In this document: positions 11,653-25,892 of the stretch, piece after piece | Layout of the letters: every line of letters starts with the position of its first letter | Numbering within the stretch: the first letter of the stretch is position 1 | Assembly: GCA_017428155.1 (NCBI GenBank) | Contig: JAFRRJ010000052.1 | Span: 1 to 64,000 of the forward strand | Source: Clostridiales bacterium | GTDB taxonomy: Bacteria; Bacillota; Clostridia; Saccharofermentanales; Saccharofermentanaceae | DNA: 64,000 nt | Direction of reading: 5' to 3' | The notes under the pieces: generated by a model | The model's input: only the letters and a program-made list of their open reading frames with translations | What the model was told of the DNA's origin: nothing | The model's database searches: none | Position numbers and translations under genes: made by a program

Positions 11653-13152
11653 TCAGCACTTTCCGAAGAGATATTCGATGAACTTCACGTAATCGGCATA
11701 TCCCTTGGTGCCGATCGAGTACGCAAAGCCTATATAGTAATCGTGCTCTTCATCAAGACCTAACTTCTTTTCCGCTTCATCAGTGAGCTTTAAAGCTACC
11801 GGAACGGGCTCGTCGGATTCTTCCGCGCCCATCTTGAACAGATCCTGGAATGAGATTCCCTGCCTGCTTTTTGTCTTCTCAGCATCAGTCATCTCATAGT
11901 AGTAGAAGTCATCTGATGTGAAGTTATCCATGTTTACGAGATCATTCATATCCATGAAGTAATCCGTGGTGGAATAACCCCAGACGACATCATCTCTCAT
12001 GATGACATAGTCGAATGTGCCTGTTACGATCTGTGATCTGAAGGCTACCTCAAGATATTTCTCCTCATATTCGGATACACTGCCGTATCCTAATTCGGTA
12101 TCGATAAGCTCGGCAGTCTTTTTCTTACCGTAGCCGCCCCACTCCAGGAAGCCCTTCGTCGCGTAATCCCTGCCCTCATCCGTCACGGTGCAGTTGATAA
12201 GACCGCCGCCTAATACACGCATGCTGCTCTTGTAGATATCATGTGAATACCAGCATACGGCTCCGACAAAAAGAATGACGAGTACCGTTCCGGGCAGATA
12301 GTACTGGCAAAGATATATGGCCTTCTGCTTTCCGTTCAGTTCTCTGAGCTTGGCTTTCTCAGTCCTGATGAATCTTGTAAATCTGTTGCCTGACTTGTCT
12401 TCAACCTTGTCAGGTGTCTCAAGATTCTTCTCGAGAGCCTTAACATCCTTCTTTGCTCCCGCAAGAGAGATATTGCCTGCGGCATCGAGCTCGGGATTTG
12501 TCTCAACGGATTCCTTAAGAGCCTTAAGTTCATCGGCACGCGCCTTCTCGAGCTTGTCGAACTGCTTGATGAAAACAAGGCACATAAAGTATGTGATCGT
12601 GGTCGATGTAAATGCATAGACCAGAGGGAACCACTGTGCGTACCAGAGGCAAGCGACGATGGAACCTAAGAAAAGCAATCCTATAAGTGACAGCGGAATG
12701 ATCTTGACTATCGCAAGGATCAATGCAGCCTTGAATACTTCAAGAGTCTTCATCTTATATCTTGCGATGACAGGGAATATAGCCATAGTCATGAGGAACA
12801 GGGCAATGCTGAAAGCGATGATGCCGATCTTGTAAGCAAGTCCTGTATTTGCCCATCCGTTATATGTGATCCAGCGCCAGTCAAGTATTATCAAAGCTAT
12901 TCCGACAAGAAGGATCAGCCAGACTGCGGTTGCCTGCTTGAAATTTTTCGCGAAGGCCGTAAAGAAAGGCTTGATTACGCCTGTGCCCTCACCTCTTATT
13001 ATCTTCATCGCAACATAGTACTTGGCTGAGTATGCCGCGCCGAAAGTAAATATCGGTATGCTGCAGATTATAAAGAGCAGATGCACGATGATAAGGTCTG
13101 CGATCGTGCTCAATAAGTTCATTACCGGACTGTCAGGCTTTAAAAAGTTCAT
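11653..13152 (-). CDS. DUF624/YesL-type membrane protein with an added extracytoplasmic domain
   Basis: The first 200 residues have five or six hydrophobic segments and look like the YesL/DUF624 family that accompanies CUT1 sugar transporters. This protein is 499 aa, about twice the usual YesL length. After a charged cytoplasmic stretch (about 205-275) comes another membrane helix (about 283-303) and then about 195 residues that should lie outside the cell. That last part has blocks such as VTGTFDYVIMRDDVVWG that resemble a periplasmic-binding fold, which is a weak impression. It follows the permease operon but is separated from it by a terminator. The function is unknown; a role in sugar uptake or sensing is inferred from position only. 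Confidence 0.7.
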   Translation of the reverse strand: MNFLKPDSPVMNLLSTIADLIIVHLLFIICSIPIFTFGAAYSAKYYVAMKIIRGEGTGVIKPFFTAFAKNFKQATAVWLILLVGIALIILDWRWITYNGWANTGLAYKIGIIAFSIALFLMTMAIFPVIARYKMKTLEVFKAALILAIVKIIPLSLIGLLFLGSIVACLWYAQWFPLVYAFTSTTITYFMCLVFIKQFDKLEKARADELKALKESVETNPELDAAGNISLAGAKKDVKALEKNLETPDKVEDKSGNRFTRFIRTEKAKLRELNGKQKAIYLCQYYLPGTVLVILFVGAVCWYSHDIYKSSMRVLGGGLINCTVTDEGRDYATKGFLEWGGYGKKKTAELIDTELGYGSVSEYEEKYLEVAFRSQIVTGTFDYVIMRDDVVWGYSTTDYFMDMNDLVNMDNFTSDDFYYYEMTDAEKTKSRQGISFQDLFKMGAEESDEPVPVALKLTDEAEKKLGLDEEHDYYIGFAYSIGTKGYADYVKFIEYLFGKC

Positions 13153-13360: not shown

Positions 13361-14290
13361 TTATTCCTTAACGCCGCCGATCGTGAGACCTGTAACGAAG
13401 TATCTCTGAAGGAACGGATAGAGGGCAATGATAGGTGCCATTGTCGCAATGGATGCGGCAGATCTAACCGTGATAGGCGTGATCGTCTTAGCGGAAGCAG
13501 CAGTCATCTGAGCACCGGATGTAACACCTGTAGTTGCGGATACGGAGTCAAGCAACTTCATAAGCTCGTACTGCAATGTTGTGAACTCAGGATTGAATCT
13601 GTTATACAGCATTGCGTCGAACCAGGAGTTCCAGTGATAGACTGCAACGAACAGCGCGATCGTAGCATAAACCGGTTTACAGAGAGGAGTAACGATACTC
13701 CAGAATACTCTCATGTAACCTGCACCTTCGAGCTGTGCTGCTTCTTCCAATGAATCCGGAATACCCTGCATGTAAGTTCTCATAACCATTACGTTGAAAG
13801 CGCTTACGAGGCCGGGGATAACATAAACCCAGAATGAGGATGTCAGGTGGAGATATCTGTAGAGGATCAATACCGGGATCATACCACCGGAAGCATACAT
13901 CGTGATGATCCAGAAAAGGGATACACCAGACTTGAAAAGGAACTTCTTGCGGCTCAGGATAAATGAGAGCAAGGCGTTTGCTGCCAGGGAAGTAAGAGTA
14001 CCGATAACGGTTCTCAGAACAGTGATCTTAGCACCGACACGGATGCCGGGTCTTTCGAATAAGATCTCTTCGTAGCTTCTTATTGACCACTTACGGGGCA
14101 AGAGATAGATTCCGCCTCTTACAGCGTCATTACCTTCATTGAAGGAATAAGCTAATGTATTAAGAACAGGGTACAAAGTCACAACTGCGAACAATACAAG
14201 GATGATCGTATTGACAATCGTGAAGATGAGATCCTCTGTTGCCATTCTCTTTTTGTGCTTAATTCTTACTAATTCAACTTCTTCTGCCAT
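13361..14290 (-). CDS. Carbohydrate ABC transporter permease (LplC/YtcP-like, CUT1)
   Basis: A 309-residue inner-membrane subunit with six hydrophobic segments and the binding-protein-dependent permease motif EEAAQLEGAGYMRVFWSIVTP (EAA loop), which docks the ATPase. It ends in TGLTIGGVKE, the usual LplC-type end. It is paired with the LplB-like permease 18 nt upstream. The substrate is not readable from the sequence; the neighbouring esterase-GH43 gene suggests xylan- or arabinan-derived oligosaccharides. Confidence 0.9.
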   Translation of the reverse strand: MAEEVELVRIKHKKRMATEDLIFTIVNTIILVLFAVVTLYPVLNTLAYSFNEGNDAVRGGIYLLPRKWSIRSYEEILFERPGIRVGAKITVLRTVIGTLTSLAANALLSFILSRKKFLFKSGVSLFWIITMYASGGMIPVLILYRYLHLTSSFWVYVIPGLVSAFNVMVMRTYMQGIPDSLEEAAQLEGAGYMRVFWSIVTPLCKPVYATIALFVAVYHWNSWFDAMLYNRFNPEFTTLQYELMKLLDSVSATTGVTSGAQMTAASAKTITPITVRSAASIATMAPIIALYPFLQRYFVTGLTIGGVKE

Positions 14291-14308
14291 GAATAGTTCC
14301 CCCTTTCC

Positions 14309-15283
14309 TTAGAACAGACGCTCGTCGCCCTTCTTCTTGGCGATGTAGTTAGATACTACGATGAATGACATAGATACGACTGTCTTGAAAATACCGGCAG
14401 CGGTACCTAATGAGTAGTCTAAGTTACGAGCATCAAGTGCCCAGTCGAGGACATAGATGTCGATTGTTCTGGCTACGTTCTGTACAAGACCGTTACCGAG
14501 CAGGTATTGCAATTCGAATCCGGCATTGAGAACGTTACCCATGTTCATCAGCAAGAGGATCATGATGGTAGGACGGAGACCCGGAAGAGTTACATAACGC
14601 ATCTTCTGGAAACGTCCTGCGCCGTCGATTGAAGCTGATTCATAAAGACAAGGATCGATAGAAGTGATTGCCGCAAGATAGATGATCGCATTCCAGCCTG
14701 TCTCTTTCCAGAGGTGGCTGCATGTGACGATACCCCAGAACAGTTTTGGATCACCAAGGAATGCATAAGGGGACTTTAAGATGCCAAACTTTACAAGGAG
14801 CTCGTTGATAATACCGGTAGAAGTAAGCGCGTCGTGAACGATCGCAACAACGATGATCCATGAAAGGAAGTGCGGCAAGTATGAAATTGTTTGAATAGAT
14901 TTCTTAAAGTATTTATTCTTAACTTCGTTTAAGAGTATGGCGAACGCAATTGCAACGACTGTGCTGAATACGAGATTAAGCACACCCATGGCAAATGTGT
15001 TTCTTATTACCATAAGGAATTTTTTATCGCTGAACAGGAATTTGAATTTGCCTAAGCCGACCCACTTGGATCCTGTAATACCCTTGGCGTATATGAAGTT
15101 CTGGAATGCGATTATCCAGCCTGCAAGAGGAAGATAATAGAAAATGATTCCGTAAACGATATAAGCCGCCGCGATTGCAACCAGAATCCACTGTCTTTTA
15201 AATTCTTTGACAGTGAGCTTAGGCTTGTTAAGATCAATGTCTTTTTCTTTTTTCTTCAATCTTTTTGAAGTCGAAATTTCCAT
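14309..15283 (-). CDS. Carbohydrate ABC transporter permease (LplB/YtdP-like, CUT1)
   Basis: This 324-residue permease has a basic cytoplasmic N-terminus, six membrane segments and an EAA loop (ESASIDGAGRFQKMRYVTLPGL). The ending YIAKKKGDERLF is typical of LplB-type permeases. With the downstream permease it would form the heterodimeric channel. No ATPase gene lies in the operon. The ATG follows an AGGAG site just after the intercistronic hairpin. Confidence 0.9.
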   Translation of the reverse strand: MEISTSKRLKKKEKDIDLNKPKLTVKEFKRQWILVAIAAAYIVYGIIFYYLPLAGWIIAFQNFIYAKGITGSKWVGLGKFKFLFSDKKFLMVIRNTFAMGVLNLVFSTVVAIAFAILLNEVKNKYFKKSIQTISYLPHFLSWIIVVAIVHDALTSTGIINELLVKFGILKSPYAFLGDPKLFWGIVTCSHLWKETGWNAIIYLAAITSIDPCLYESASIDGAGRFQKMRYVTLPGLRPTIMILLLMNMGNVLNAGFELQYLLGNGLVQNVARTIDIYVLDWALDARNLDYSLGTAAGIFKTVVSMSFIVVSNYIAKKKGDERLF

Positions 15284-15372: not shown

Positions 15373-17133
15373 TTAAGCAGGTGTCCAACCGAAGGACTTA
15401 GCTGTCTCAAGTCTCTTGTTAACTTCTGCCTGAGCCTCATCGAGGAATGCCTGAGGATTGCACTCAGCATATGCAGCCTGATAAGAGTCCCAATCAGATT
15501 CGAAGTTCTTGCTCATAACAACTGTAGGGAGCCAATAGTGCTTGCACTCACCCATGTTCTTCCAAGCGATACCGCCTTCAGTATCGGAAGAAATGTTGTT
15601 AGACCATGACCAGAGAGGATACCAAGGAGCGTTTACAACGATCTCGGAACCGAGGAACTCGGAGTATGTACCAACACCGTAAGCCTCGAATGTCTTTCTA
15701 AGAGGAGCTGCGAGACCTTCGATGAACTCTGAAGGCTGCTCGTCAGGCATCATACGGTTGATACCATCCTTGCTCATACCTCTCCACTGAGGGCAGTATG
15801 AGTATTCGCAAGAGTGCTTAGCCTTGTAGCTGTCGCTCTTCCAGTTCTCTCTCATCTCTTCTGTTCTGTAGAAGAGGCCGTTCTCGTCTACGAGATAGTC
15901 AGTACCTTCAATACCCCAGAAACGGAGGTTGTGAATGTCCTGATCAAGGAGTGCGCTCAGGAATGCGAATGCGAGATCCGGATCAGAGCAGCTTGTTGTG
16001 ACGCCGCAACCAGAAGACTGGTTGAGCTCGTCGTCATAAGAGTGCCACTGCTGAGGCTGACCAGCCTTAGCAACGAGGCCGAGAGGTACGTAATCGCAAC
16101 CGATCTCATCAAGACGGAAGTCGTTTCCATCCTTATCCTGGAGAGGAGAAGAGAAAGGTCCCATGAGGTTGTATGCGAAGTCCCAATACTGATCGCAGAG
16201 ACCAAGAACACGACCTGTAGAAAGCTTAGCGATATACTCATCGTATGTCTGTGTAGCGAAGTCAGGATCGATGTGACCTGCGTTGAACTCTTCATTCAGC
16301 TTCTTGAAGTACATCTTAGCTGTAGCTGTTGTGTTGTAGTCAACAACCTTAGGATTCTCCATGCCTGCGTCGATGTTAACGATGCAGCAACCATCGTTCG
16401 GATAACCGTCGAGGAACATAGGAGCGTTCTCTAAGCAATAATACTTCCAGTCTTCGCAAAGACATGTATAAGGGATAACCGGAGTTCCGTCAGGAAGCTC
16501 AGGATTTGCCTCAGCATACTTTACGAGGAGATCGAAGTACTGATCTAATGTCTCGATCTTAGGATAGTTAGCCCACTCAAGGACACGAACCTGAATCCAG
16601 AAAGCCTCACCATTGTGGCCTGTAGCTGTGTTGTGGTCATAAGAGTTGCCGAAAACGTTAGCCCAGTAAATGTGGCCGTCGTCCATACGGAACTTATCCC
16701 ACTCTTCAGCTGTATACATTTCCTTAAGGTTGGGATACTTCTCAAGATATTCATCCCAAGCTACGAGCAAGCCGTTCTCATAGAGAGTAACGCAGCCGTC
16801 GCCACCATCAATAAGGTCAGGCAGCTTACCTGATGCGATGATGGAGCCGATAGCTTCGCCTGCGTTCTGACCTGTGAGCCATGTTTCCTTAACACGGACA
16901 CCTGTCTTCTCAGCGATGATCTCCATGATTTCGTTTCCTGCGTCCTTCTCTTTACCAGCCATAGCAGCGAACATTGTGAAATCAACGATTTCCTTAGGGC
17001 CATCTGTCTCAGTGCCGGTTGTAGGTGTGCCGGGTTCCTGGGACTCTGTAGGCTTGTTCTGCTGACAAGCTGTGAGAGCTGACAACGCCATCATTGATGC
17101 GAGGACCAATGCAACGAGTTTCTTTGTCTTCAT
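15373..17133 (-). CDS. Extracellular sugar-binding lipoprotein (LplA-like solute-binding protein)
   Basis: A 586-residue lipoprotein with a type II signal: basic start, hydrophobic stretch and lipobox LTAC with C23 as the lipid-attached residue. The long mature domain, rich in Trp and Tyr, resembles the large LplA/YtcQ-type binding proteins that serve LplB/LplC permeases. A Thr/Pro/Glu-rich spacer (about 27-48) sits between anchor and domain. It is the first gene of the ABC operon behind a TATAAT promoter with AraC-type repeats. The ligand is probably an oligosaccharide; this is inferred. Confidence 0.92.
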   Translation of the reverse strand: MKTKKLVALVLASMMALSALTACQQNKPTESQEPGTPTTGTETDGPKEIVDFTMFAAMAGKEKDAGNEIMEIIAEKTGVRVKETWLTGQNAGEAIGSIIASGKLPDLIDGGDGCVTLYENGLLVAWDEYLEKYPNLKEMYTAEEWDKFRMDDGHIYWANVFGNSYDHNTATGHNGEAFWIQVRVLEWANYPKIETLDQYFDLLVKYAEANPELPDGTPVIPYTCLCEDWKYYCLENAPMFLDGYPNDGCCIVNIDAGMENPKVVDYNTTATAKMYFKKLNEEFNAGHIDPDFATQTYDEYIAKLSTGRVLGLCDQYWDFAYNLMGPFSSPLQDKDGNDFRLDEIGCDYVPLGLVAKAGQPQQWHSYDDELNQSSGCGVTTSCSDPDLAFAFLSALLDQDIHNLRFWGIEGTDYLVDENGLFYRTEEMRENWKSDSYKAKHSCEYSYCPQWRGMSKDGINRMMPDEQPSEFIEGLAAPLRKTFEAYGVGTYSEFLGSEIVVNAPWYPLWSWSNNISSDTEGGIAWKNMGECKHYWLPTVVMSKNFESDWDSYQAAYAECNPQAFLDEAQAEVNKRLETAKSFGWTPA

Positions 17134-17329: not shown

Positions 17330-18928
17330 TTACGACTCTCTGTTTGTTTTCCGGTATTTTGAGGGGGTACAGCCCATGATCTCAATAAACTTGCGGATAA
17401 AGTAGTCGCTGTCCTTATATCCGACGTCTTCGGCTATACGGTTGATCTTCTTGTCTGTATTGATGATCTGCTTTGCAGCTTCCTTGATCCTGTAATTTGT
17501 CAGGTAATTCTTGAAAGAGGTCCCGTACTTTTTGCTGAAGACCTGTCCGAGATACGAGCTGTTGATGTGATATTTATCACCGAGATATTTAAGACTTATG
17601 TTGTCTGCATAGTTTTCCCTGATCTCCGCTTCGACCACGGCAAGAATACCGTGCGAGATGCTTTTTCGAAGTTCGGAAAGATAAGCTGCATATTCAAGCG
17701 CGAATTTCTTTAAGTGCTGATGGCTGCCCCGTAAAAATGCATCATCAGATGTCTGGGCGGAAATATACTGGATGATCTCCTCCTGGTTAACGGAGTCGTC
17801 AAGTTCGCTTGCAAGATGAATGAGCTGAAACAGCAGATAGTTGATGTTAAGGTCAAATGCCCTGTTGTTGCCTTCCCTGTCTTTCAGCTCATCGAAAAGC
17901 TTCTCTATTCCTTTCTCTATCAGCTGCGGATCATTCTTTACGATAGAACTGATGATCTCATCGATCGTGTTCTTGCAAAGGACGATATTGCTGTGCGAGG
18001 TCTGTGTCTCTTCATAGAAATAGAGTTTTTTCCTGTTATGGAATCCTGCGATACTCTTGAGTCTCCTGCAGGAATTAAACGACTTTGAAAGGGATGATAT
18101 GTCCGGAACAAGTTTGCCGCAGAACATTCTTATAGGTTTTATAATAAGCACTTCAAGTTTTCTTATAAATGCATTGAGGAATTCCTCCTCTGTCATGTCA
18201 CGCATGGCAGCCATATTCTCACTGTAGATAAATCCTACGCTGTTGCTGTCTTCTTCTACCGTGATATCAAGTGTAAAGTGATCAGCATATTCCTTTAGGA
18301 TCTCCCTGCACGAATTGAAGATGGATCTTTGAATAGCACTGGAATCGTAGTCCTCTGAATCCCCTTCGATCAGTTCCGCTTCACTTCTGACCGGCTCGAT
18401 ATAGATAAACCTGAGGTTGCCGGACAGCTGAAGCTGTCTGTTCGCGAACTCGATATCCTCATTGTTGAACTTGCCTCTTATAAGGTGTCTTATGACTCTT
18501 GCCAGATATGCATCCTCCATCTTCTCCCTGTCTTTTCTGAGAGTTATGGACTCGCGGTTGAGATTTGACACTTTGCGGAGTACGGATATCAGTTCCTCTT
18601 CTATGACCGGCTTAAGGATATAGTCAAGGCAGCCGTTTCTTATCGCTCTCTGAGTATAGGCAAAATCATCGTAACCCGTGAGCAGAACAAATTCAGCATC
18701 TGATATCTTCTCTTTCTTAACTGTCTCAAGAAGTTCAAGACCGGTCATCTCCGGCATCTTGATATCAGAGATTATGAGGTCAACTCTGTTCTCCCTTAAA
18801 TACTTCAATGCTTCCTTGCCGTTATGGCAGACTGCGGCGATCTCGAATCCGCCGCTCTCCCAGTCGATAATGACCTGAAGGCCCTGTAGGATATAAGGTT
18901 CGTCGTCAACAAGCATTACTTTAAGCAT
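17330..18928 (-). CDS. AraC-type response regulator (YesN-like)
   Basis: This 532-residue regulator has an N-terminal receiver domain (phosphoacceptor D55 in SDIKMPEMTG, with the acidic pair in LVDDE), a long middle region (about 130-420) and a C-terminal AraC helix-turn-helix (last 100 residues, with NISLKYLGDKYHINSSYLGQVFSKKYG). I place the start at the ATG at 18928 behind GAGGTGG; upstream frame is open but lies inside the kinase gene. Its start is 8 nt past the kinase stop. It probably activates the neighbouring ABC operon and perhaps the esterase-GH43 gene. Confidence 0.9.
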   Translation of the reverse strand: MLKVMLVDDEPYILQGLQVIIDWESGGFEIAAVCHNGKEALKYLRENRVDLIISDIKMPEMTGLELLETVKKEKISDAEFVLLTGYDDFAYTQRAIRNGCLDYILKPVIEEELISVLRKVSNLNRESITLRKDREKMEDAYLARVIRHLIRGKFNNEDIEFANRQLQLSGNLRFIYIEPVRSEAELIEGDSEDYDSSAIQRSIFNSCREILKEYADHFTLDITVEEDSNSVGFIYSENMAAMRDMTEEEFLNAFIRKLEVLIIKPIRMFCGKLVPDISSLSKSFNSCRRLKSIAGFHNRKKLYFYEETQTSHSNIVLCKNTIDEIISSIVKNDPQLIEKGIEKLFDELKDREGNNRAFDLNINYLLFQLIHLASELDDSVNQEEIIQYISAQTSDDAFLRGSHQHLKKFALEYAAYLSELRKSISHGILAVVEAEIRENYADNISLKYLGDKYHINSSYLGQVFSKKYGTSFKNYLTNYRIKEAAKQIINTDKKINRIAEDVGYKDSDYFIRKFIEIMGCTPSKYRKTNRES

Positions 18929-18936
18929 ATTCCACC

Positions 18937-20703
18937 TCAATCTGCTGTAGTGATCATATCTGCAGGTATCCTTATGATGACACTCATTCCGATACCCTTT
19001 TCGCTGTCTATGGTAAACTTTGCCTTGTCCCTGAACATCATCTTTATACGTAGACATGCATTCAGGATGCCGACATGTTTTGCCTTTTTGATTGTATCAA
19101 TGGTAACATTGTTCATTCTCTGCTGGAGAAGATCCGCCTCAGCTTCAGCCATTCCGTCACCGGTATCCTCGACCTCGATCACGAGTTCGTCCCCGTCCTT
19201 ATATGCCCTTACAAATATCCAGCCCTGTGTCGACTTGGATTCGATTCCGTGGACGCAGGCGTTCTCAACAAAAGTAACCAGCGTAAGCTTCGGGATAAGG
19301 AACTTCTTGCAGTCATCACTGATCTCGATGTTAAAGGATATCCTGTCACCGAATCTGTAGCTTTGCAGCTGAAGATAAGCCTCGATAAACTCCTCTTCCT
19401 CTTCTATCGTAACCGCATCCTCATGCCACTCAACATTCTGTCTTTCCATGACAGCAAGTCTTTGTACCATCTCCGCCGTCTCCGTCTCGCCCTTAAGGAT
19501 GCTGTGCATTCTTATGCTCTCTAACGCATTGAACAGGAAGTGAGGATTGATCTGGCTCTGGAGTGCCAGAAGTTCCGCGTTCTTACGCGCGAGATCAGAC
19601 TCCTGCTCGCGGAGCTTGTCTTTATAGATCGTCCGGGTAAGTTCCTCGTTGATCTCGACGATCCTGTTGTAGTTATGCATGAGGGACGAGATCTCATCGG
19701 ATCCCTTAATCTCTTTTATCGGCTGAAGGATATCATTCCCTCCTTCACCGAACGCTTTTCCGAGAATACTGATTCTGTCGGTGATCGATCTTTCCAGAAG
19801 CTTCATGATGAGGATCGGGATAACGAGTGTGACGATAAACAGGAGCAGTGTTACGAGCATGTTATTCTTCATTACGTCGGTAATGGTCAAGCCTTCAGTA
19901 ATGGCGTAGATCGTGAATGTGGCGCCGTACATCAGGACTTTCCTCTCAGTAACATACGGCTCATTTGCAACCTTTTCCATGAGCTTCTGATAATCATTGG
20001 TACTGTCCTGGCTCGGATAGATCAGATAGTCATCACAACAGATAAACATCGTGCAGTTGACCGGGATATCGGCAAGCTCTCCGGTGATCCTCCAGCTCCT
20101 GTGCTCGATCGTTACGATCTTCTCGATAGGAGATTTGGTGTTGGTCATCCTTCTGACGTAGACAAAACGCTTCTGGTCAAAAGTCCTTAAGACAGGATCG
20201 TAATCGTAATACGCATAAACACCCTGATTCTCACCGCTTGCTATGAACTTCTGATACCAGATCTCATTCTCGGCATCCGACAGATGGTGGAAATAGTTGC
20301 CGTTGATGATGGACTTGTTGTCGCAGTAGATAATGATCCTGTCGCGGTTATAGTCGGTCAGTGTCGAGAAGAAAGAATTGGAGATCGTGTTTACGTAATT
20401 CTTATAGTAGTTGGACGGCTTATCATACAGCGTATTCATGAAAGTGTTGAGGTTCTTGTTAAGGTCGATCGACGACGCAACCGCCGTATCGTACGCAAGG
20501 AGGTTCTCGATGTAGTTCGAATATGCATCGATAGCTGTCTCTCTATAGTAGGACTGGTTCTTAAGTTCAGTCTGGTATATGGATCTTATAAGAAAGAAAT
20601 CAGTCGTGAGAATAGGAAGGATCACGCCGAAGACGTACATCAAAAGGAATTTCTTATTAAGTTTTAATCTGCCGAAAAAGCTTCCCCTGACGCGATCAAA
20701 CAT
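18937..20703 (-). CDS. Sensor histidine kinase (YesM-like)
   Basis: A 588-residue sensor: membrane helix (about 19-40), a large extracytoplasmic domain (about 41-278, Tyr/Asn-rich, of the dCache kind), a second helix (about 280-302), HAMP, then a His_kinase domain with QSQINPHFLFNALE (histidine near 395) and a HATPase domain (VENACVHGIE and EDTGDGMAE). This is the YesM family that pairs with AraC-type regulators and senses carbohydrates or binding proteins. It is co-transcribed with the regulator gene. Confidence 0.92.
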   Translation of the reverse strand: MFDRVRGSFFGRLKLNKKFLLMYVFGVILPILTTDFFLIRSIYQTELKNQSYYRETAIDAYSNYIENLLAYDTAVASSIDLNKNLNTFMNTLYDKPSNYYKNYVNTISNSFFSTLTDYNRDRIIIYCDNKSIINGNYFHHLSDAENEIWYQKFIASGENQGVYAYYDYDPVLRTFDQKRFVYVRRMTNTKSPIEKIVTIEHRSWRITGELADIPVNCTMFICCDDYLIYPSQDSTNDYQKLMEKVANEPYVTERKVLMYGATFTIYAITEGLTITDVMKNNMLVTLLLFIVTLVIPILIMKLLERSITDRISILGKAFGEGGNDILQPIKEIKGSDEISSLMHNYNRIVEINEELTRTIYKDKLREQESDLARKNAELLALQSQINPHFLFNALESIRMHSILKGETETAEMVQRLAVMERQNVEWHEDAVTIEEEEEFIEAYLQLQSYRFGDRISFNIEISDDCKKFLIPKLTLVTFVENACVHGIESKSTQGWIFVRAYKDGDELVIEVEDTGDGMAEAEADLLQQRMNNVTIDTIKKAKHVGILNACLRIKMMFRDKAKFTIDSEKGIGMSVIIRIPADMITTAD

Positions 20704-20877: not shown

Positions 20878-20913
20878 TTATTGTAAATATATTATTTTTT
20901 TGAGGTGTCCCCT

Positions 20914-23886
20914 ATGTTAAAGATCGTAAGGACCGAGAACGGGCTTGTGAGAGGCTTGCCGGGCAATAATACACGCATCACGGCTTTCAAAGGCATTCCG
21001 TTCGCCCAGCCCCCGGTAGGTGAAAACCGCTGGAGAGCTCCCCTTCCCTGCACCGACTGGGAAGGTATCTACGATGCTTACAGGTTCGCGCCTATCTCCG
21101 TACAGGATCAGCCCGGTGTCGGAACAGACATATACTGCCGCGAATGGCATGTTGATCCGGATATCGAGATCAGCGAGGACTGCCTCTACCTGAATGTATG
21201 GACAAATGCCAAGAGTGCGGATGAGAAACTCCCTGTTCTCGTATGGTTTTTCGGCGGCGGCTTCCAGTGGGGCTATACCGCGGAAATGGAATTCAACGGT
21301 GAAAACCTTGCAAAAAGGGGCATCGTTGTAGTTACAGTCAATTACAGGCTGGGTGCTATAGGTTTCCTTTCACACCCTGACCTGTTTGAGGAATCTCCCG
21401 AGGCTCCCGCCAACTTCGGCCTGCTGGATCAACAGGCCGGACTTAAGTGGGTAAGAAGGAACATCGCCGCATTCGGCGGTGATCCCGATAACATCACTAT
21501 TGCCGGTCAGTCAGCAGGCGGCGGGAGCGTTCTCAATCACCTTACGGCAAAGTCCAGCATCGGGCTTTACAGCAAGGCGGTTATCTTATCGGGAATCATC
21601 TCCTTTCCTTACATAAAAGATTTTGTCATGACTCCGAGAACGAGGGAAGACGCATGCTCCTACGGCGTGAAATTTTTCGCAAAGCTCGGCGTAAAGACAG
21701 TTGAGGAAGCAAGAAAGCTCGATGCTTCGTATATCCGTGAGGTCTACGCGAAGTTCAGAGAAGAGGAAAACTTCTTCTTCACACCCATGATCGACAATGT
21801 CTTCATGGATGACGAGCCCTATAAGCTCTTCCTTCAGGGAAAGCATGCTCATGTTCCCATGATGTCAGGCAACACCTTCGATGAGTTCCCGAGCTTTATC
21901 CCTGCTGATTCACAGGAAGACTTCGAAGCCAAGGCAAGGGCCATCTTCAAAGATAAGACGGACGAATTCCTCTCTTTCCCCGAAGCTAATAAACATAACG
22001 GCAATCTCTATGCACCTGTCCGTGCGATCGAATGTGCTGTCAAAGCGGCTTTCACGCGCAATGACAAGCCCGGCTACTACTACAGCTTCGAGCCCGATAT
22101 CCCCGGATGGGACGACCCGGGCACATTCCACTCAGTAGACCTCTGGTTCTTCTTCGATAATCTCGACAAGTGCTGGAGACCCATGACGGGCAGGCACTTC
22201 GATATCGCAAGACAGATGAGCACTTACTTCGTTAACTTCATCAAGAAGGGCGATCCTAACGGTGACGATGCCGACGGAACACCATTGCCTGTCTGGAAGC
22301 CTTTTACACCCAACTCGAAGAACGAGATGCACTTCACTTCCGAAGGCGCGAAAACATCCGTCCAGGAGGATTCCTCCGAGTCAGATTTCCTGTCTTTCAT
22401 GACAAAGCACATCGAAGAAACTACAGTTGGATCAGACGTTATAAAAGAAGATTCTTCCGGACCCAAGGTCTCGCTTTATGAGGTTCCCGCAAAGCAGGCA
22501 TTCAACCCCTACCTCCCCAACTGGGAATTCATCCCTGACGGAGAGCCCTACGTATTCAATAACAGGGTATATATCTACGGTTCACACGATTTCTTCGGCG
22601 GCGAGTATTTCTGCCCGGGCGATTATATGTCATGGTCTGCTCCGGTAAATGATCTCGGCGACTGGACATGTGACGGCGTTATCTTTAAGAGAACTGACGA
22701 TCCTGCCAACGGCAATAACAGAGGCTGCCTTTATGCGCCTGACATTACAGTCGGACCTGACGGCAGATACTATCTGTACTATGCGCTCGACAATGACTGC
22801 GTTGTTTCGGTCGCTGTATCTGACACACCTTCCGGCAGGTTCAAATTCATAGGCAATGTCCATTATGAGGACGGAACTCTTCTCGGCAGAAGAGCAGGCG
22901 AAGAGCAGCAGTTCGATCCCGGTGTCATTACTATAGGTGATACGACATATCTTTATACCGGCTTCTGCGGACAGACTGACGCTTCACGTCACGGATGCAT
23001 GGTTACGGTTCTTGATAAGGATATGCTGACGGTCAGAAGAGCTCCGGAATTCGTTATACCTTCCACACAGTACAGCAAGGGCACGGAATATGAAGGCCAC
23101 GCTTTCTTCGAAGCTCCTTCCATCAGGGAAAGGAACGGCATCTTCTACCTCATCTACTCTTCACAGGTAATGCACGAGCTCTGCTACGCTTATTCTTCAG
23201 ATCCTCTTGGGCCTTTCAAGTACGGCGGTGTCATAGTAAGCAACTGCGATATCGGTATTGATACTTATAAACCGGCTGATAAGCCTGCTGCTTTTGGTGC
23301 CAACAACCACGGCAGCATCGTTGAGATCGGTGACGAGTGGTACATCTTCTATCACAGGCAGACCAACAACGACTGGTATTCACGTCAGGGCTGCGCTGAG
23401 AAGATCAGCTTTACCGAAGGCGGCATGATCCCTCAGGTCGAGATCACTTCCTGCGGCCTTAACGGCGGTCCTTTGAAGGACGATACGGAATATCCCGCAC
23501 ACATCGCATGCAACATTTTCGATAACAACAACAAAATGTATGTCGGCGAGATGCACTCGGCAAATATCACCATGGATATCAGCGAAGGCCCCGAGGGACG
23601 TTCACATATAAGGCAGATCTCAGACGGCACCACCGTTGGCTTTAAGTACTTTGACCTTAAAGGCATCAAAGGCTTAAAGATCACGACGAGGGGATACGGC
23701 AAAGGCGAGTTCGAGATAAGGACTTCCATTGACGGTGATATCTTAGGAAAGATAAGTGTGGATTTCTGCACGGCATGGACAGAAGGCACGGCAGAATTTA
23801 CCGTTCCTGACGGGGTATATCCGCTCTATCTTACATTTACGGGAGTTGGCAATCCTTCATTGCTCAGCTTTGAATTCTTACATTGA
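20914..23886 (+). CDS. Bifunctional carboxylesterase - GH43 glycosidase fusion
   Basis: One 990-residue protein joins three parts. Residues 1-505 are a type B carboxylesterase: oxyanion loop FFGGGF (112-117), nucleophile S200 in GQSAGG (family norm GESAGG), acid near D323, histidine H406. Residues about 525-860 are a family 43 glycosidase with expected base D542 (IPDGEP), pKa modulator D610 (YAPDI) and acid E733 (FFEAPSI). Residues about 862-990 resemble a CBM6-type beta-sandwich. There is no signal peptide, so it should act in the cytoplasm on imported, esterified arabino- or xylo-oligosaccharides. Start: ATG 8 nt after GAGG; a GTG at 20905 lies inside that site. It is divergent from the YesM/YesN genes. 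Confidence 0.88.
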   Translation: MLKIVRTENGLVRGLPGNNTRITAFKGIPFAQPPVGENRWRAPLPCTDWEGIYDAYRFAPISVQDQPGVGTDIYCREWHVDPDIEISEDCLYLNVWTNAKSADEKLPVLVWFFGGGFQWGYTAEMEFNGENLAKRGIVVVTVNYRLGAIGFLSHPDLFEESPEAPANFGLLDQQAGLKWVRRNIAAFGGDPDNITIAGQSAGGGSVLNHLTAKSSIGLYSKAVILSGIISFPYIKDFVMTPRTREDACSYGVKFFAKLGVKTVEEARKLDASYIREVYAKFREEENFFFTPMIDNVFMDDEPYKLFLQGKHAHVPMMSGNTFDEFPSFIPADSQEDFEAKARAIFKDKTDEFLSFPEANKHNGNLYAPVRAIECAVKAAFTRNDKPGYYYSFEPDIPGWDDPGTFHSVDLWFFFDNLDKCWRPMTGRHFDIARQMSTYFVNFIKKGDPNGDDADGTPLPVWKPFTPNSKNEMHFTSEGAKTSVQEDSSESDFLSFMTKHIEETTVGSDVIKEDSSGPKVSLYEVPAKQAFNPYLPNWEFIPDGEPYVFNNRVYIYGSHDFFGGEYFCPGDYMSWSAPVNDLGDWTCDGVIFKRTDDPANGNNRGCLYAPDITVGPDGRYYLYYALDNDCVVSVAVSDTPSGRFKFIGNVHYEDGTLLGRRAGEEQQFDPGVITIGDTTYLYTGFCGQTDASRHGCMVTVLDKDMLTVRRAPEFVIPSTQYSKGTEYEGHAFFEAPSIRERNGIFYLIYSSQVMHELCYAYSSDPLGPFKYGGVIVSNCDIGIDTYKPADKPAAFGANNHGSIVEIGDEWYIFYHRQTNNDWYSRQGCAEKISFTEGGMIPQVEITSCGLNGGPLKDDTEYPAHIACNIFDNNNKMYVGEMHSANITMDISEGPEGRSHIRQISDGTTVGFKYFDLKGIKGLKITTRGYGKGEFEIRTSIDGDILGKISVDFCTAWTEGTAEFTVPDGVYPLYLTFTGVGNPSLLSFEFLH

Positions 23887-23976: not shown

Positions 23977-25221
23977 CTAGATCTCAACAGTAATAACGAT
24001 CCCTTTATCCTTTGAAGCGGCATTGATCCTGCCGCCGTGGGATTCCGTGATGCCCTTGGCTATCGACAGACCGATTCCGTATCCGCCGGTCTCCGAATTT
24101 CTTGAGCTGTCGGCTCTGTAGAAACGGTCGAACATGTGCTTTATGACATCTGCCGGGACGGGTTCTTTTGTATCGTTATATACTTCGAAAACAGTTTTCG
24201 AGCCCTGCTTATGAAGAGAAGCCCTTATATTGCCGCCTTCAGGTGAATACTTTACGGCATTGTCCATAAGGATAGATACGAGCTCTTCAATAGCCCTCTG
24301 ATCGCCGTTATATGAGAGCCCGCCCGTAATCTCCGAAGTGATCGTCTTGCCTGATGATCTTGCAAGTCCCTTAAAGGATTCGACTTCTTCTGCTATACAG
24401 TCAGACAGCGGGAAATCGATCATTGCCATCTTCTGCTTTGAACCTTCCCCGGTCTTAGCAAGATAGATAAGCCTTCCTGTCAGGCCGGTAAGCCTCTCGG
24501 TCTGCTTTCTGATATCAGCGATCCATTCATTATCGGCATTCTCCATCTCGAGAACGTCACAGTCGGCATTGATAACGGCAAGAGGGGTCTTGAGTTCATG
24601 CCCGGCGTCGGTAATGAATCTTTTCTGCTTCTCATACGCTTCTGCCGCGGGCTTTACGACCGCTTTTGATGTTGCTGCTATGAGCGCGAAAACAATGAGA
24701 AGGCCGATGAGCGATATGAAGATGCTTATCCAGAGAAAGGATCTCGCGTTATTAAGGCTCCTTCCGCAGTCATAGAAAACGATAAGCATGGAATCTCCGA
24801 GATCCGCTATCCTGAATCTGTAATCGCCTTCAAAACCTTCCAGTTTCCCCTGTTTGAAGACCTTCTCTGCAAGTTCCCCTGCTTCAGAAACATCTACTGC
24901 AGCGATCATTCCGGTGTTTGTAGCAATCATTGAACCGTCATAAGATATCCTGATCGTGAAATATCTCGCCTCAAACTTCAGTTCCGGAGATCTCTTATCT
25001 CGCCTTCCGCCAAACGGATCAGTGAACGGGTCGTTGGACAATGGCGACAGCCTCTCAGGAAATGCGCCCCCGCCTTCAACGAGCATATCAATGATGTTGT
25101 CAGCTTCCCGTGTGACATTCCTGAAGTTGAATATATTAATCAATCCGATAAGGACAGCCAGCACGGCCGTGACTGAGAGCATCGAGATGATGATGAACTT
25201 TCTTCTGAGCCGGCTTATCAT
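23977..25221 (-). CDS. Two-component sensor histidine kinase (OmpR-partner type)
   Basis: A 414-residue kinase: membrane helix 10-32, an extracytoplasmic sensor domain of about 130 residues, second helix about 162-184, then DHp domain with H208 in DAGHELKTPL and a HATPase domain (MDNAVKYSPEGG; GGYGIGLSIAKGI). The linker after the second helix is too short for a clear HAMP domain. The start overlaps the response regulator stop by 4 nt. The signal is unknown. Confidence 0.92.
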   Translation of the reverse strand: MISRLRRKFIIISMLSVTAVLAVLIGLINIFNFRNVTREADNIIDMLVEGGGAFPERLSPLSNDPFTDPFGGRRDKRSPELKFEARYFTIRISYDGSMIATNTGMIAAVDVSEAGELAEKVFKQGKLEGFEGDYRFRIADLGDSMLIVFYDCGRSLNNARSFLWISIFISLIGLLIVFALIAATSKAVVKPAAEAYEKQKRFITDAGHELKTPLAVINADCDVLEMENADNEWIADIRKQTERLTGLTGRLIYLAKTGEGSKQKMAMIDFPLSDCIAEEVESFKGLARSSGKTITSEITGGLSYNGDQRAIEELVSILMDNAVKYSPEGGNIRASLHKQGSKTVFEVYNDTKEPVPADVIKHMFDRFYRADSSRNSETGGYGIGLSIAKGITESHGGRINAASKDKGIVITVEI

Positions 25222-25892
25222 TTGATCTCCTCCAGGGTATATCCGGCATTGCGCACAGCCTTGATCTGAACGTCAGATTCCAAGGCAGCAAGCTTTTTCC
25301 TCAGATACGATATATATGTCCACGCAGTGCTTATATCGGCCTCCGAATCAAGACCCCAGATCTTATCCATGAACTTCTCGGTTGATATAAGTATCCCCGG
25401 GTTCATCATAAGCATCTCCATCATCTGGAATTCCTTGCCTGCAAGTCTGTACTTGCCTTTAGGAGATGAAAGCTCAAAGCTTCCCCTGTCAAGAGAGAGG
25501 TTGCCGAACCTCAGCACATTATCGGCAGATGATGAAGACTGTCTTGTAAGGACCCTGATCCTTGCAAGGAGTTCTTTGGTGGCGAAAGGTTTGGTCAGAT
25601 AATCGTTGGCACCGGAATCAAGTCCTTCGACTTTATCGTCTGTCTCGGATCTTGCAGTAAGCATGATCACCGGTACTTTATTGCCTTTGGTCCTGATCTC
25701 CTTAAGAGCGGAGATACCGTCCTGCTTTGGCATCATGATATCCATGATCACCAGATCGTATTCTGTGGCCATGGCGTAAAGCACTGCCTCTTCACCGTCG
25801 AAAACACAGTCAACGGAATAATTGTTCCCGGTCAGAATAGCCTTTAAGGCTTTGGATAATGACTTCTCGTCTTCTGCAAGGAGGATCCTCAT
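25218..25892 (-). CDS. OmpR/PhoB-type response regulator
   Basis: A 224-residue regulator with a receiver domain (D51 in IMDIMMPKQDG, K in TKPFATKE) and a winged-helix DNA-binding domain (AGKEFQMMEMLMMNPGILIS; WTYISYLRKKLAALESD). It is the partner of the kinase it overlaps. The upstream region (25893-26400) is AT-rich and holds no good consensus promoter. Confidence 0.93.
   Translation of the reverse strand: MRILLAEDEKSLSKALKAILTGNNYSVDCVFDGEEAVLYAMATEYDLVIMDIMMPKQDGISALKEIRTKGNKVPVIMLTARSETDDKVEGLDSGANDYLTKPFATKELLARIRVLTRQSSSSADNVLRFGNLSLDRGSFELSSPKGKYRLAGKEFQMMEMLMMNPGILISTEKFMDKIWGLDSEADISTAWTYISYLRKKLAALESDVQIKAVRNAGYTLEEIK

Follow-up and report, generated by a model that had tools for sequence, protein, structure and literature searches.

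The window, that is, the whole stretch of 64,000 nucleotides analysed here (contig JAFRRJ010000052.1 of a rumen Clostridiales bacterium, assembly GCA_017428155.1), carries a gene whose single polypeptide joins a type-B carboxylesterase to a GH43 domain and a C-terminal domain of CBM6 fold. Our preferred reading, to which we assign a probability of about 0.7, is that the product is an Xsa43H-type bifunctional enzyme located in the cytoplasm, which would act on imported, esterified arabino-xylo-oligosaccharides, first removing their ester groups and then stripping them of arabinose or xylose. The architecture is not new, and a cytosolic two-step enzyme was already implied in 2015 by Xsa43H itself. 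What is new here, as a modest addition, is the set of fused, split and swapped forms in which the two halves occur, together with their arabinose and import context.

Domain architecture of the fusion protein

The gene forms one intact, stop-free frame in which the esterase (PF00135), a disordered linker, the GH43 domain (PF04616) and the CBM6-fold domain follow one another (Table 1), so that the earlier note's view of a single polypeptide combining an esterase, a GH43 domain and a CBM6-like end is borne out. The choice of ATG 20914 as the start is supported by the GAGGTG motif just upstream. A search of NCBIfam gave no GH43 name for the protein, no plasmid-borne copy was found (no plasmid record covered 80% of the fusion query), and a PADLOC search for defence systems returned zero matches.

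Table 1. Coordinates of the fusion gene, its parts and the divergent locus in the window
Feature	Position	Strand	Basis
Fusion gene (esterase, linker, GH43, CBM6), 990 aa	20914..23886	+	Full-length alignment with 51 homologous fusions
Likely ribosome-binding site, GAGGTG	20902..20907	+	Sequence, 6 bases 5′ of ATG 20914
Type-B carboxylesterase domain, aa 1-480; oxyanion G113-G115; predicted triad S200, E324, H406	20914..22353	+	PF00135, alignment with pNB esterase 1qe3, invariance
Variable linker, about aa 481-526; model disordered around aa 510-538	22354..22491	+	Column identity, pLDDT
GH43 domain, aa 527-860; D542 base, D668 probable pKa modulator, E733 acid	22492..23493	+	PF04616, alignment with TerARA 9no3, Foldseek
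CBM6-fold C-terminal domain, aa 861-990	23494..23883	+	Profile match, predicted fold
YesM-type sensor histidine kinase, divergent to fusion	18937..20703	-	PF06580, PF02518; conserved neighbourhood
YesN/AraC-type response regulator	17330..19000	-	PF00072, PF12833
Predicted lipoprotein solute-binding protein	15373..17133	-	N-terminus and position; no Pfam match at 1e-6
Two CUT1/LplB-LplC-type ABC permeases (13361-14290 and 14309-15283)	13361..15283	-	Homologues beside swapped pairs
DUF624 (YesL-type) membrane protein with long C-terminal extension	11653..13152	-	PF04854

The esterase half matches the COesterase profile of Pfam with an E-value of 5.6e-95 (319.7 bits, where the cut-off is 27), and its residues 187-202 carry the serine signature F-[GR]-G-x4-[LIVM]-x-[LIV]-x-G-x-S-[STAG]-G, which we take to be the PROSITE type-B carboxylesterase pattern. 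With the Bacillus subtilis p-nitrobenzyl (pNB) esterase (1qe3) and other type-B carboxylesterases it shares the fold, the oxyanion glycines and a Ser-Glu-His triad, whereas identity to the pNB enzyme is about 30%, and the latter is unfused and has GESAGG where the window protein has GQSAGG. In the 1qe3 alignment, E324 of the fusion is aligned with pNB E310 and is conserved in all 61 ingroup esterases, while position 323 is occupied by S, N, K or E in others. This rules out D323, which had been put forward as the catalytic acid; S200 and H406, proposed along with it, stand, and the predicted triad is therefore S200, E324 and H406.

The GQSAGG context of the nucleophile had also been taken as a possible sign of altered specificity. 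This motif is invariant in the 52 fusions, and GQSAG[GA] is present in all 63 type-B esterases of the tree set, outgroups included, as well as in the host's own paralogue. Because it is universal in the esterase set examined, the motif says nothing of altered specificity; GQSAG is the normal nucleophile motif of the clostridial esterases concerned. Two genomes from a family other than the host's also have a type-B esterase domain, 38% identical to that of the window, embedded in open reading frames some 2,700 residues long (G275:C10:18800-20296 and G389:C9:185807-187306).

Across the fusions, column identity is 33% in the linker versus 64-82% in the domains. In the full-length predicted model (mean pLDDT 83, pTM 0.56) the domains are mostly confident and the pLDDT is about 30 at residues 510-538, a picture that fits two independent catalytic units joined by a flexible tether.

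On the GH43 side, the Glyco_hydro_43 profile matches residues 579-838 (E 3e-25), and the closest solved GH43-CBM6 protein is TerARA (PDB 9no3), a termite metagenome arabinofuranosidase/xylosidase that is 45% identical over that half (Foldseek E 2.7e-53 for the GH43 half) but whose solved chain, unlike the window fusion, is without an esterase domain. D542, D668 and E733 are invariant in 68 of 68 GH43 sequences and are aligned with Xsa43E and TerARA. The earlier note had named D542, D610 and E733 as the GH43 residues; the first and the last are retained, whereas D610 is rejected as the modulator, since both 8hcj and Xsa43E, a xylosidase/arabinofuranosidase, have Gln at the aligned position but keep D668. 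The Asp that modulates the pKa in GH43 enzymes typically sits in an FDPG motif, and for both of these reasons the modulator is most likely D668, which lies within that motif.

Of 25 family members, 24 match CBM_6 (PF03422) over the C-terminal 134 residues, with a best E of 7e-07; the match of the window copy itself (E 2e-4, 22.1 bits) lies under the Pfam cut-off of 28.9 bits. Predicted alone, the domain reaches a mean pLDDT of 89.5 and resembles CsCBM6-3 (VIA Z about 17, 1.7 Å over 118 residues) and the C-terminal domain of TerARA (Z 19.7). Its role may be structural, or it may hold oligosaccharides. At the other end of the protein, inspection by eye of the N-terminal region revealed nothing resembling a signal peptide, in agreement with the earlier note, and the protein is presumably cytoplasmic.

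Distribution of the fusion

The fusion is widespread in gut bacteria. A near-whole match in one frame was obtained in 56 of the 115 genomes of the host's family, and one-frame fusions also occur in Lachnospiraceae, in Butyrivibrio isolates and in isolates YAD3003 and AB4001; the sources of the homologues include rumen and herbivore gut. Both domains are intact and the catalytic residues are invariant across the 52 fusions. The same fusion is thus found in related genomes, where the earlier note had suggested looking for it, and its recurrence in independent genomes, isolates included, rules out an assembly error joining two genes, which that note had raised. That is, although the host assembly is a 67-contig draft, an assembly or frameshift artefact is hardly conceivable.

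Two irregular cases were observed. In one draft genome (L125 and L076) a stop near residues 93-118 interrupts the fusion gene (4480-4780 in L125), reflecting either a sequencing error or a decaying gene. In the draft genome G079, the fusion is represented by two fragments at contig ends (L017 and L133) that overlap over about 470 residues, and here either a second copy or mixed strains may be involved.

Gene neighbourhood

The divergent locus encoding the YesM and YesN proteins, the solute-binding protein, the permeases and the DUF624 protein (Table 1) is kept in the window's clade, and the solute-binding protein gene is conserved beside fusions and swapped pairs. Of the two permeases, the one at 14309-15283 matches PF00528, and the one at 13361-14290, with no Pfam match at 1e-6, was assigned by sequence and position. 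YesL-type proteins are typically only about 200 aa long, whereas the DUF624 protein has 499 aa, with a charged linker and a further membrane segment in addition to its C-terminal extension. Directly downstream of the fusion lies a second two-component system (23977-25892, minus strand), which is present in some close relatives; in those without it, a phosphoglycerate-mutase-like gene follows the fusion instead. Many draft contigs of the genus (G073:C4, G071:C10, G063:C17, G020:C5 and others) begin about 20.9 kb upstream of the fusion gene, immediately past gyrA; this pattern suggests strong synteny and the presence at this point of a repeat, for instance an rRNA operon.

In the sister groups and around the swapped pairs, the neighbours are a GH51 arabinofuranosidase, an FGGY kinase and the L-ribulose-5-phosphate 4-epimerase AraD, in some cases with GH39 as well. 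GH51 flanks fused, split and swapped pairs in the relatives, many of which also have AraD and the FGGY kinase, and in three loci (L054, L056 and L110) GH51 and YesM-type genes are both present. The window copy is without GH51 or AraD neighbours; single searches located the host's GH51 and AraD on other contigs and a GH10 enzyme also elsewhere. For several Lachnospiraceae and Butyrivibrio fusions, no GH51 or AraD was found in the stretch fetched. Given the arabinose neighbours of the relatives and the GH51, AraD and GH10 genes elsewhere in the host, arabinose-bearing xylo-oligosaccharides are the likely substrate.

Fused, split and swapped arrangements

In one arrangement of separate genes among the relatives, the esterase gene comes first and the GH43 gene follows at gaps of -20 to +72 bp. 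The swapped order, with the GH43-CBM6 gene first and the esterase 1-24 bp behind it, occurs in the window genome's own genus, where the tight pairs (L116, L117, L118, L121 and L126-L129) adjoin GH51 and often LplBC or AraD/FGGY. In more distant Clostridia both genes are present but further apart. When fusions were left out of the class sample, the GH43 was also found in 13 of the 16 genomes having the esterase, against 1.1 expected, a count that scores the two best candidates per genome and ignores shared ancestry.

Phylogenetically, the swapped pairs form one clade, and L078 and L084 represent one return to separate genes within the fusion group. In the esterase tree the Butyrivibrio fusions group with the swapped-order esterases; however, keeping all fusions in a single group is not rejected (p-AU 0.209), and the GH43 tree minus one long-branch row joins the Butyrivibrio fusions with the other fusions, with a support of only 15. 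The Butyrivibrio fusions may, from their placement in the esterase tree, stem from a separate fusion event.

Comparison with known proteins

Xsa43H (Bpr_I0301) of Butyrivibrio proteoclasticus B316, a 107.9-kDa protein with no signal peptide, was described as 'xylosidase/arabinofuranosidase and esterase', with two catalytic domains noted, and was detected in the cytosolic proteome in 2015 (PMC5217386). Its counterpart in B. hungatei MB2003 is xsa43F (bhn_I0164), of 925 aa (PMC5716241). Both have the composition of the window fusion, that is, an esterase (called 'CE10') plus GH43 and no signal peptide (PMC5217386, PMC5716241). The Butyrivibrio-type fusions L100 and L177 are likewise 925 aa long and adjoin a divergent GH43-CBM6 gene, as in the Xsa43H and xsa43F genomes. 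The window fusion was aligned end to end with the Butyrivibrio fusions, although these differ in having a shorter esterase half, a shorter linker and other neighbours, Xsa43H and xsa43F themselves being compared by description. The GH43 half of Xsa43H is 65% identical to Clostridium stercorarium XylA, a dual xylosidase/arabinofuranosidase (PMC5217386), and it is through this half that XylA, whose GH43 is described as unfused to an esterase, is likened to the window protein. Also likened by description is Xyn10D (Bpr_I1083) of B. proteoclasticus, a cytosolic two-domain glycosidase-esterase of the same niche, which differs in combining 'CE10' with GH10 where the window has GH43 (PMC5217386). When the literature was searched for an assayed fusion of a type-B esterase with GH43, Xsa43H and xsa43F were the only proteins of that architecture to emerge, and no published assay was found for the window protein or for the esterase half of any close relative.

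Proposed function

The earlier note had proposed that the enzyme processes imported, still-esterified oligosaccharides in two steps inside the cell. This proposal is well supported by the lack of a signal peptide, the divergent importer locus, the arabinose-catabolic neighbours in relatives and the cytosolic Xsa43H (PMC5217386), whereas we infer the natural ester, which step comes first, the nature of the imported substrate and any kinetic gain from fusion. Short esterified arabino-xylo-oligosaccharides would be made outside the cell and taken up through the adjacent ABC system, with YesMN as its regulator. The serine esterase at the N-terminus would take off the acyl groups, which are probably either hydroxycinnamoyl at O-5 of arabinose or acetyl borne by xylose, and the GH43-CBM6 half would next hydrolyse the exposed terminal alpha-L-arabinofuranosyl and/or beta-xylosyl residue. 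Because the halves appear to be independent folds on a flexible tether, they would be coupled through co-localisation and 1:1 dosage and not through a shared active site. Against this explanation stand the position of the window copy, away from GH51 and AraD, and the promiscuity of type-B carboxylesterases. A further point against it is that the ester substrate predicted for Xsa43H is triacylglycerols (PMC5217386).

In a sharper version of the same explanation, the esterase would be specifically a feruloyl/p-coumaroyl esterase that frees arabinose O-5 for a GH43 arabinofuranosidase, the two acting in obligate order on one side chain. In grasses, ferulate is ester-linked to O-5 of arabinose, and this version agrees with the GH51, AraD and FGGY kinase neighbours of many relatives, with the arabinofuranosidase/xylosidase type of the GH43 half and with the rumen and herbivore-gut homologues. 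However, no sequence feature examined within PF00135 tells feruloyl and acetyl esterases apart, and no genes for hydroxycinnamates were noticed in the neighbourhood. We consider this version possible, at somewhat less than even odds. The literature consulted on feruloyl esterase activity among type-B carboxylesterases offered nothing attributable to PF00135.

A tentative alternative, to which we give rather less credence, is that the esterase acts as an acetyl esterase on acetylated xylo-oligosaccharides, paired with a GH43 half that is chiefly a beta-xylosidase. Xylan is commonly esterified with acetate, both XylA and TerARA combine xylosidase and arabinofuranosidase activity, and GH39 and a beta-helix gene (possibly GH120) accompany some relatives, but the commonest co-located genes, GH51 and AraD, are arabinose-specific. 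It is because of these arabinose neighbours that we slightly favour feruloyl over acetyl as the ester.

A broader idea is that the esterase lineage fused to or paired with GH43 constitutes an undescribed class of cytosolic esterases whose substrates are 5-O-feruloyl-arabinosyl or acetyl arabino-xylo-oligosaccharides, and that it joined this GH43 partner on more than one occasion, in fused and in swapped form, because the ester must go before the glycosidase can act; we regard this as speculative and rather unlikely. Decidedly improbable is a general detoxifying or housekeeping carboxylesterase fused to GH43 through chance operon read-through. Such esterases are indeed promiscuous, and since the separate genes lie only a few bases apart or overlap by as little, a frameshift or a lost stop codon would be enough to fuse them. 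Against this reading, however, several families retain the pair, whether fused, adjacent or swapped, next to sugar genes, and the catalytic residues are invariant in both halves.

As to the significance of the bifunctional cytoplasmic enzyme that we prefer, ruminants are known to be hampered in digesting grass fibre by its esterified side chains, and a conserved esterase-glycosidase acting after import would place part of the de-esterification within the cells of gut Clostridia. Related genomes supply fused, split and swapped versions with which to test what the enzyme pair gains from fusion.
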